The position numbers were made by a program, and so were the translations under genes. A stretch of DNA of 6,465 nt from Spirochaetaceae bacterium. Lineage in GTDB: Bacteria; Spirochaetota; Spirochaetia; B11-G9. The notes below the pieces were generated by a model. The model had not been told where the DNA came from and did not search any database. It saw only the letters and a list, made by a program, of their open reading frames with translations. Shown here piece after piece: positions 2,145 through 4,888 of this stretch. The stretch spans positions 1-6,465 of the forward strand of contig DAOVSY010000170.1 in assembly GCA_030633365.1 (NCBI GenBank), in the 5' to 3' direction. Within the stretch, counting starts at the first letter, position 1. Every line of letters begins with the position of its first letter.

Positions 2145-2148
2145 AGAT
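2135..2148. repeat. 14-bp perfect palindrome over the stop codon
   Basis: ATCTCTATAGAGAT reads the same on both strands and spans the TAG stop at 2142-2144. It may be an operator-like half-site pair or chance in AT-rich DNA. No T-run follows, so it is not a standard terminator. I could not build a convincing promoter around it. Confidence 0.35.
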
Positions 2149-2157
2149 TACTATTAA

Positions 2158-2186
2158 GGCTGGTCGGGACTTCGTCCCTGCTCGCC
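2158..2186 (+). repeat. Hairpin 1 of the element (copy A of the palindromic motif)
   Basis: GGC 2158-2160 pairs with GCC 2184-2186. UGGUC 2161-2165 faces UGCUC 2179-2183, giving U-C and C-U mismatches around G-U, G-C and U-G pairs. GGGAC 2166-2170 pairs with GUCCC 2174-2178 around a UUC loop. Confidence 0.7.
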
Positions 2187-2188
2187 CA

Positions 2189-2229
2189 TGAGTCGTACCG
2201 GAAGGACGAAGTCCTGAGGAACGATCTCA
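2189..2229 (+). other. Hairpin 2 of the element (long irregular stem)
   Basis: UGAG 2189-2192 pairs with CUCA 2226-2229 and U2225 is bulged. UCGU 2193-2196 pairs with ACGA 2221-2224. An A-A mismatch (2197/2220) is followed by CC/GG (2198-2199/2218-2219). A GGA/GA internal loop (2200-2202/2216-2217) may form tandem G-A pairs. AGGAC 2203-2207 pairs with GUCCU 2211-2215 around a GAA loop. The GGA/GA loop resembles part of a kink-turn but lacks the usual three-base bulge. Confidence 0.6.
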
Positions 2230-2230
2230 A

Positions 2231-2281
2231 CAACCAAAGCCTGGTCGCAAACAAGTTTGCTGCTCGGCTATGCAACCAAAG
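2231..2281 (+). repeat. CAACCAAAG direct repeats flanking hairpin 3
   Basis: The 9-mer CAACCAAAG occurs at 2231-2239 and again at 2273-2281, so hairpin 3 lies between (and slightly overlaps) two copies. The second copy runs into the exbB ribosome binding site (AAAGGAG). It may be part of a repeated unit, a duplication made by insertion, or a single-stranded binding site. Confidence 0.55.
2238..2269 (+). repeat. Hairpin 3 of the element (copy B of the palindromic motif)
   Basis: AGCC 2238-2241 pairs with GGCU 2266-2269. UGGUC 2242-2246 faces UGCUC 2261-2265, exactly as in hairpin 1. GCAAA 2247-2251 pairs with UUUGC 2256-2260 around CAAG. The outer and inner helices differ in sequence from hairpin 1 but keep their pairing. 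It is in the same orientation as hairpin 1, 80-81 bases downstream. Confidence 0.7.
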
Positions 2282-2284
2282 GAG
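2278..2284 (+). promoter_or_regulatory. Ribosome binding site that decides the exbB start
   Basis: AAAGGAG ends 9 bases before the ATG at 2294. An in-frame ATG at 2270 lies upstream of this site, within and just after hairpin 3, and has no ribosome binding site of its own. ATG 2294 is therefore the better start. Confidence 0.8.
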
Positions 2285-2293
2285 TTAATAAAT

Positions 2294-2902
2294 ATGTTTT
2301 TGATGATTTCAAAGGGCGGCCCTATTATGGTGCTGATCATTTTTTTATCTATAGTTGCAGGAGTCATTATTATTGAGCGCTTATTATTTTTCCGCAGAAT
2401 TCGTATGGATGAAGAAAAATTTATTGATCGCTTAAAATCTGCAATTCAAAAGAGTCATTATGATGAGGCTCTTGATATTTGTGAAAACAATACAACTCCC
2501 CTTTCTAACTTAATGAAGGTTGGTATTGAGCATCGAAGTTATGGGAAATCCGAGATAAAGGAATCTATTTTAGCAGCTGCAAATTTAGAGGTTCCTCAGT
2601 TAGAGAGGTATTTGACATCTCTTGGAACAATAGCCCATATTTCACCTTTGTTGGGTCTTTTGGGAACAGTCACAGGAAACATAAAAGCTTTTGGTGTACT
2701 GGGTAATTTTGGATCTGTAGCAGACCCTTCTCTTTTGGCAACAGGAATATCCGAAGCATTACTTACAACTGCTGCAGGTATTATTGTATCTATCCCTGCT
2801 ATTGCATTTTATAATTACCTCGTTGGAAAGGCAAATAATACAATTACAAATTTAGAGAACAGAGTAAATGATATGGTTCTGTTTTTTGGAGCAGGTGAGT
2901 AA
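2294..2902 (+). CDS. exbB: ExbB/TolQ/MotA-family proton channel subunit
   Basis: The product is an inner-membrane motor subunit that, with ExbD, uses the proton gradient to energise TonB. From ATG 2294 it has 202 residues, close to the usual size for short ExbB/TolQ proteins. The family layout is visible: a first membrane segment at about 10-30 followed by a basic FFRR, a long cytoplasmic part from about 35 to 108, then two membrane segments at about 110-130 and 157-177. The second holds SPLLGLLGTVTGNIKAF with the conserved threonine (T125). The third is preceded by GISEALLTTAAG, whose glutamate (E154) matches the functionally important TM3 glutamate of the family. I chose ATG 2294 over the in-frame ATG 2270 because the AAAGGAG at 2278-2284 fits only the former. 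The stop overlaps the exbD start by one base (TAATG). TolQ is the alternative name; the TonB-like third gene favours ExbB. Confidence 0.92.
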   Translation: MFLMISKGGPIMVLIIFLSIVAGVIIIERLLFFRRIRMDEEKFIDRLKSAIQKSHYDEALDICENNTTPLSNLMKVGIEHRSYGKSEIKESILAAANLEVPQLERYLTSLGTIAHISPLLGLLGTVTGNIKAFGVLGNFGSVADPSLLATGISEALLTTAAGIIVSIPAIAFYNYLVGKANNTITNLENRVNDMVLFFGAGE

Positions 2903-4228: not shown

Positions 4229-4888
4229 ATGAAAATAAAAGCAGTAGGTTTTGACATTGATGGGACTTTATACCCTAATCTTTCTATGTATATAAGGTCC
4301 TCATCCTCTTTTCTCAGTCATCCCCGTTTAGTTTATCATTTTGGTAAAGTGCGAAAAGAGGTTCGTAAAACTGAGTTTTCCGGTGATTTTAGAGCTAATC
4401 AGGCTAAACTTCTTGGATATTCTATGAATATTTCACAGGAAAGGGCTGCTGATTTAATAGAACGACAATTATACCAAAGATGGGTTTATTCATTTAAGGG
4501 AGTTAAACCCTTTAAAAGTGTCAGACCAGCATTGCTTTCCCTAAAGCGTGAAGGTATAAAACTGGGTGCTTTATCGGATTTCCCAGTGGAGAGAAAATTG
4601 GAATTTTTAGGTCTTGCTGATTTAATGGAAATTGCTTTTTCTTCCGAAGAGACTGGTCATCTAAAGCCTCACAACGCACCTTTCATTAATTTGATAAGTA
4701 AATTCGGTATAAACCCCGGGGAAATTCTATATGTGGGAAATAGTTATAAATATGATATTCTAGGTGCAAAAAGAGTAGGTTTACGTACTGCTCATTTAGT
4801 AAAAAAACCGGATCCTGATAGTCAGGCAGATTTTTCCTTTCATTCGTTTCTGGATTTACGGGATTGGATATTAGCAATTAATAATTGA
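4229..4888 (+). CDS. HAD-superfamily hydrolase
   Basis: A probable phosphatase of the haloacid dehalogenase superfamily, cytoplasmic, substrate unknown. The 219-residue length is normal. Motif I is FDIDGTLYP, with D9 as nucleophile and D11 as acid/base. Residues about 17-95 are the helical cap. Motif II is LGALSDFP with S116. Motif III is GHLKPH with K146. Motif IV is YVGNSYKYDILGA: the first position that is usually Asp is Asn171, while D176 is kept. This GN variant occurs in some HAD hydrolases, so activity is still likely. The ATG is 5 bases after the tonB stop; an AAGGG at 4212-4216 is a somewhat distant ribosome binding site. It probably shares the exbBD-tonB transcript, but nothing in the sequence ties its function to the motor. 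Confidence 0.88.
   Translation: MKIKAVGFDIDGTLYPNLSMYIRSSSSFLSHPRLVYHFGKVRKEVRKTEFSGDFRANQAKLLGYSMNISQERAADLIERQLYQRWVYSFKGVKPFKSVRPALLSLKREGIKLGALSDFPVERKLEFLGLADLMEIAFSSEETGHLKPHNAPFINLISKFGINPGEILYVGNSYKYDILGAKRVGLRTAHLVKKPDPDSQADFSFHSFLDLRDWILAINN

Follow-up and report, generated by a model that had tools for sequence, protein, structure and literature searches.

The known systems closest to the element reported here include the REP sequences mobilised by TnpAREP, a Y1 (HUH) transposase, which the available text of PMC8266576 portrays as imperfect palindromes of 20–50 nt with conserved mismatches, high in copy number and often intergenic; the spread of such repeats is described in the same text as poorly understood. 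The BOX elements of Streptococcus pneumoniae are modular (boxA-boxB(n)-boxC), with a tandem module, many copies and nesting, possess terminal inverted repeats and target-site duplications (TSDs) and have been proposed to affect neighbouring genes, as far as the accessible part of PMC3049150 goes. Another class of REPs, tagged with CGTC, has been reported also from Spirochaetes and consists, in the portion of PMC3733652 at hand, of small palindromes that end in an unpaired tail of the CC(A) kind and, in the table given there, show no transposase gene association. The IS200/IS605 elements combine a hairpin with short internal-to-flank complementarity (available text of PMC8266576), while the free-standing IS605-type stem-loops of Borrelia plasmids, which differ from the present element, are presented in the accessible part of PMC2775950 as having a bulged T and lying 3′ of lipoprotein genes.

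The GC-rich block analysed here, located between a gene for a barrel-like protein and exbB in a spirochaete, very probably consists of two kinds of short, REP/BOX-like hairpin element, non-autonomous and arrayed as A-B-A, which have spread in a group of Spirochaetota. Like BOX, the A/B arrays are modular, the likeness being one of architecture and not of sequence homology; in contrast to BOX as presented in the available text of PMC3049150, a plain TSD is not established for A, and many A/B units end at a Shine-Dalgarno (SD) sequence or at a tRNA 5′ end. Element A is a short high-copy palindrome, as are the REPs of PMC8266576, but in comparison with what the accessible text gives for the latter it lacks GTAG, forms direct tandem arrays and carries a triplet complementary to both flanks. 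The palindromic form, the unpaired tail and the want of a tie to transposase genes are shared with the CGTC REPs in the available part of PMC3733652, whereas the stems, loops and direct tandem arrangement of A and B differ. A hairpin with short complementarity to its flanks is common to A and IS200/IS605, but, in contrast to IS200/IS605 in the text of PMC8266576 at hand, a single triplet at the 3′ foot of A matches both flanks and no Y1 gene is common to all carriers. MITEs carry terminal inverted repeats and a TSD; the A unit, for its part, consists of a single imperfect palindrome followed by a 3′ tail. The family was not found described in the titles, abstract openings and passages retrieved from the open-licence PMC literature, including the available text of PMC12306157 and PMC1590033.

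The window, which is the whole stretch of 6,465 nt that was analysed, contains a run of genes for a TPR-like protein, the barrel-like protein (588–2144), ExbB, ExbD, a TonB-like protein, a HAD hydrolase and two further proteins; a Pfam search produced no match for either the barrel-like or the TonB-like protein. The original prediction of a GC-rich block of three adjacent hairpins in AT-rich surroundings was confirmed in its composition (58.0% GC in 2158–2269 against 34.2% for the whole window) and in its predicted fold: the minimum free energy of 2158–2277 was −47.1 kcal/mol (z −3.35), with only 3 of 1000 dinucleotide shuffles as stable, and the longer segment 2145–2293 had a z of −2.97, reached by 2 of 200 shuffles. 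The block is not a single unit, as hairpins 1 and 3 are copies of one element (A), sharing CTGGTCG...CTGCTCG, and hairpin 2 is a different element (B); CAACCAAAG is present twice in the block, and both repeats had escaped the original prediction. Each element is about 40 nt in size, and the consensus of A reads CTGGTCG-stem-CTGCTCG-NNN-ATGCAACC. The parts of the array preceding exbB, in the order A-B-A, are as follows:

2156–2159, forward strand: AAGG flanking the array on the left; the final two of these bases pair with the foot of hairpin 1 (from the sequence and the foot pairing rule)
2160–2187, forward strand: first A hairpin as a whole (from the sequence, the fold and the covariation of the A family)
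2160–2166, forward strand: CTGGTCG of the first A hairpin, followed by the stem and tip
2178–2184, forward strand: CTGCTCG of the first A hairpin, followed by its internal triplet CCC (2185–2187)
2189–2230, forward strand: B hairpin TGAGTCGTACCGGAA...GAGGAACGATCTCAA, which separates the ATG of an A unit from its CAACC
2231–2235, forward strand: CAACC tail of the first A unit
2241–2277, forward strand: second A unit as a whole (from the sequence)
2241–2247, forward strand: CTGGTCG of the second A unit, followed by CAAAC-AA-GTTTG
2260–2266, forward strand: CTGCTCG of the second A unit, followed by the triplet GCT (2267–2269) and ATGCAACC (2270–2277)
2279–2284, forward strand: SD sequence AAGGAG of exbB, directly 3′ of the array and the same at the empty sites of two relatives (L002 and L003)
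2294–2902, forward strand: exbB, starting by homology at the ATG at 2294 and not at the ATG at 2270 within the A unit

The block had been regarded as having no assignable class. The Rfam search gave no credible match, only four chance-level ones far below the gathering scores, and a known Rfam RNA was rejected since no score exceeded the threshold. A terminator was also rejected, as inspection of the block revealed no T-tract. Integron attC sites have the ends RYYYAAC ... GTTRRRY; this motif was unmatched on either strand of 2131–2310, and an attC site was likewise rejected. The same segment contained no GTAG on either strand, and CGTC occurred in the window element only inside stems, at 2173 (forward strand) and about 2205 (reverse strand), so that membership in the CGTC REPs was rejected for lack of a terminal tag.

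The distribution of the elements supported the suggestion of a new family of dispersed palindromic repeats. The copies were counted in the genomes of the nearest exbB loci (G001–G008). The blastn search of these relatives with 2150–2285 resulted, with E values up to 1, in 49–62 matches for every one of six genomes, G001–G006 (42–58 at E up to 0.001), none in G007 and a single one (E 0.39) in G008. The A covariance model, with 150 candidates scored per genome, gave at least 65–141 matches in each of the same six and none in G007 and G008, while the B model found 10–25 in each of the six, none in G007, two in G008 and eight in a more distant carrier, G211, which is Salinispira pacifica (PMC4511686), a cultured spirochaete. 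A strict A pattern detected 40 hairpins, at least one of them false by eye, in 949 kb of contig-order sequence (26 in G003, five in G002, four each in G001 and G005, one in G006 and none in the 67 kb of G004). In the survey of the phylum with the A model, made with stricter filters and 16 candidates scored per genome, 15 of the 392 sampled Spirochaetota genomes were matched, G001 included; the B model matched nine of the 392, and none of 297 Thermodesulfobacteriota genomes had a match to the A model. A and B are dispersed and high-copy in a group of relatives and patchy between species. The exact A pattern was also present in five IMG/VR contigs, four of which scored with the model, two of these with the same surroundings. 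The distant blastn searches in phages returned 11 records with 31-base matches at E 0.4 in the first search and none in the second; in plasmids, there was nothing in the first and three partial matches, judged spurious, in the second. In G008, which has no A match, a B-like hairpin with an AGAT/ATCT outer stem was seen by eye to adjoin a 5S rRNA-like sequence at two loci (L326 and L332).

Both A and B are structurally conserved, and the covariation of their stems is stronger evidence for this than the fold shuffles. Among 23 aligned A units, nine of the 13 pairs changed on both sides, with none of 500 shuffles as high on any of five measures, and the core G-U, G-C and U-G pairs between the two mismatches were nearly invariant. 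In 18 B units, two-sided changes were found in five of 15 pairs, again with none of 500 shuffles as high, and the further measure of pair types was reached by two of 500. The B of Salinispira pacifica has GGG/CCC in the outer stem in place of GAG/CTC.

The proposal that the block is a structured leader controlling exbBD-tonB was not supported as its identity. An exbB homologue search produced 46 loci (L001–L046), and none of them contained an A array, nor was any recognised by eye in their upstream sequences, not all of which reached 330 bases. Empty sites are found in the close relatives L002 and L003, whose exbB is 94% and 91% identical and in which about 12 bases separate the stop codon of the barrel gene from AAGGAG, the latter being kept. 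At the locus with the most similar exbB of the three (L001, 97%), a different stretch of about 40 bases (4600–4640), possibly a decayed array, occupies the site. Moreover, copies precede a wide range of unrelated genes as well as tRNAs, and they also occur within introns and other repeats. A leader specific to exbB was rejected on the basis of the absence of the array at the exbB of relatives and the empty sites. The array may influence the translation of exbB or the stability of its mRNA; in the predicted fold of the leader with the array the SD is mostly paired with other sequence, a prediction not to be trusted either way.

A further identity considered at the outset, a non-autonomous mobile element, was likewise supported, since precise insertion of A was found both in B and in genes of group II introns, with empty and filled sites available for comparison. 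Two homologous group II intron reverse transcriptase (RT) genes, of G003 (L284) and G006 (L344), differ in that the former has a 42-bp A unit at a site empty in the latter, with the reverse at a second site, both units being in frame. A position-free scan placed A within B at the same point in five of five cases, which the B model aligned as B with a 42-nt insert, and eleven B-model matches had a doubled length of 84. In front of the same downstream gene, there is an intact B in G005 (L061) and a B carrying A in G006 (L296). Eight cases of A within A, one of them degenerate (L098), were found by a pattern examining only the point before the outer CTGCTCG, so that the choice of this point by A is not demonstrated. 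Only L158 and L316 remained clear nests in a position-free scan, in which nested and tandem A are inseparable because CTGGTCG and CTGCTCG differ by one base. Altogether, the architectures A, AA, AB, ABA, ABB and A-in-B were found.

Not every copy represents an independent insertion, because larger repeats, such as group II introns and TIR-like repeats, spread some of them. The ten A copies compared in Salinispira pacifica (L236 and nine sister copies) share their surroundings, and in the two Salinispira copies that were tested, L236 and L238, Rfam identified the surroundings as a group II intron (RF02001); in L236 the intron with its RT ORF occupies 694–2201, with the A unit ahead of the ORF. 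An intron match was obtained in all seven intron loci tested. A units lie within four of them (L343, L344, L284 and L238), all fetched for a known A unit, and in none of the three chosen without that knowledge (L345–L347); the genomes with A-containing introns are G211, G341, G006 and G003. By eye, the A units in G023 (L273–L277) and G072 (L261–L267) are situated in, or at the end of, larger TIR-type-looking repeats, which differ between the two genomes. Three loci of G003 (L089, L098 and L113) have A units inside a second palindromic repeat, CGTAGGGACAGG/TCGCGACCTGTCCCTACG. In L320 of G211, three tandem copies of about 228 bp (about 1430–2000) each appear by eye to consist of a tRNA-Leu-3′-end-like sequence, a B hairpin and a terminator-like sequence.

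The flanks of A follow a complementarity code which is statistically supported and directly testable. Among 152 non-redundant A units, complementarity to the dinucleotide preceding CTGGTCG was shown by the first base following CTGCTCG in 149 units and by the second in 150, the shuffle maxima being 101 and 109. The same was true for 25 single units outside SD sites, with related flanks collapsed, where left-flank pairing of these two triplet bases was seen in 25 and 24 units (in the shuffles, means of 11.8 and 13.2 and maxima of 19 and 20). Taken alone, the left-flank complementarity could represent two variable stem pairs of the element. The real surprise was the right flank: in the same 25 units the triplet was complementary to positions 3–5 after CAACC in 41 of 75 base pairs, against a mean of 26.7 and a maximum of 40 in 2000 shuffles, this being the best of five offsets tested. 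The third and the second triplet base each contributed 17 of 25 and the first only 7 of 25, so that two of the three bases carry the signal. The right-flank complementarity hints at a guide function or at a trace left by the junction. The third base matched the left flank in 9 of 25 units (8.2 expected by chance), unlike a plain duplication. A plain 5-bp TSD, convincing by eye, was significant neither in the 31 single non-SD copies (54 matches, against a mean of 44.7 and a maximum of 62 in the shuffles) nor in the 24 single SD copies (87 against 86.9), and the flank complementarity took its place; the slight excess in the 55 pooled copies (141 against a shuffle maximum of 140) can arise because the two classes are mixed.

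Roughly every second array ends immediately upstream of a start codon. In the contig-order sample of 33 arrays, three of them at edges, an ORF of 60 aa or more had its ATG no further than 40 nt downstream in 15 of 30 arrays, compared with 4 of 30 on the other side. The corresponding values for all loci (132 unique arrays, nine at edges, a few false ones included) were 61 and 8 of 123, a count which favours SD copies because many loci were fetched by a query including the SD. Four arrays end 1–2 nt before the 5′ end of a tRNA, among 37 tRNAs in the loci: tRNA-Met in L240, L255 and L279 and tRNA-Ile in L075. The last array is one of two exceptions among the 19 flagged as ending in B, the other 17 having a start codon within 40 nt; in the second exception (L286) an SD and ATG are followed by no ORF above the cut.

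In an alternative reading, the tandem hairpins would be cis-regulatory RNA of 5′ UTRs controlling downstream translation and the copies would be kept for regulation. Besides the arrays ending in B, this reading is favoured by the looser B pattern, with start codons on the downstream side of 47 of 66 copies and on the opposite side of 9 (seven more copies at edges; false matches in non-carriers included), by the fixed start distance of SD-located copies (13 nt in 20 of 33, with a pattern that demands AGGAG), by the covariation of both stems and by the complementarity of the triplet to the right flank. Against it, roughly every second array precedes no start codon, copies away from SD sites retain the complementarity to the right flank, close relatives lack the array at exbB, and copies occur in introns, coding frames and other repeats. 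Furthermore, a preference for AGG/GGG targets combined with purifying selection explains the gene-start bias equally well, because the SD or tRNA stays intact 3′ of the insert. Control of translation as the reason for the copies is rated unlikely; one conceivable form of it is that a CCU-type triplet would pair alternately with the left flank or with the AGG of the SD.

Membership in the classic REP elements moved by TnpAREP is largely refuted and very improbable. The size, mismatched palindrome, copy number and intergenic location of the present elements match the REPs of the available text of PMC8266576, and Y1 transposase genes were found in all eight family genomes. However, the latter include G007 and G008, which have no A; the GTAG tag is absent; and no Y1_Tnp (PF01797) match was obtained in 9 of the 14 carriers outside the six relatives, Salinispira pacifica among them, in a search which was positive in the E. 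coli control. Of the 32 Y1 matches, 20 were inspected and only one locus had a clear A unit, about 280 bases upstream (L186), while the loose-pattern A hits at L180, L189 and L195 look spurious. The A unit of L186 (G005), upstream of the Y1_Tnp gene, has flanks nearly identical to those of an A unit in L135 (G001). The carriers without a detectable Y1 transposase make the family informative on the spread of REP-like repeats.

An RNA route via the RTs of group II introns, or a spread mainly by riding with such introns, is no more credible than TnpAREP, because the four genomes with A units inside introns came from loci fetched for a known A unit, the three loci without this bias contained none, and RVT_1 was unmatched in 8 of 20 A carriers searched. 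One of these negative carriers is G356, with a 4.01 Mb contig equal to its whole stated size; another, G367, counts as a carrier only at E 9e-4. Overall, RVT_1 was absent in 10 of 22 genomes searched, eight of them with A, and the intron RT was rejected as a necessary mover.

The preferred explanation, a pair of short non-autonomous hairpin elements, would involve an enzyme acting in trans that recognises a hairpin with the near-invariant non-Watson-Crick loop UGGUC/UGCUC in single-stranded DNA or RNA and then links it to its targets. Selection or marking of the target sites is probably aided by the triplet that follows CTGCTCG and is complementary to both flanks, and copies would survive where a key sequence sits just 3′ of the insertion, either the AGG(AG) of an SD or the initial GGG of a tRNA; the array before exbB would be among these survivors. 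A more specific version, considered possible but rather doubtful, is a self-guided hairpin transposon of about 40 nt, in which the A triplet specifies the cut and joining site of a trans-acting enzyme other than Y1, pairing with the left junction through bases 1–2 and with the right junction mainly through bases 2–3. As suitable triplets (AGG and GGG) are present in SD sequences and tRNA 5′ ends, such an element would be steered upstream of functional RNAs, and its hairpins could become regulatory modules there. The family offers precise insertions and empty sites at single-base resolution.

A further consequence concerns gene annotation. The conserved ATG of the A unit resembles a start codon, and gene starts in carrier genomes may be misread and mis-annotated for this reason. 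In the window it causes exbB to begin 24 bases too far upstream in the ORF list (2270–2293), and among 33 A units at SD sites the ATG shares the reading frame of the gene in 21.
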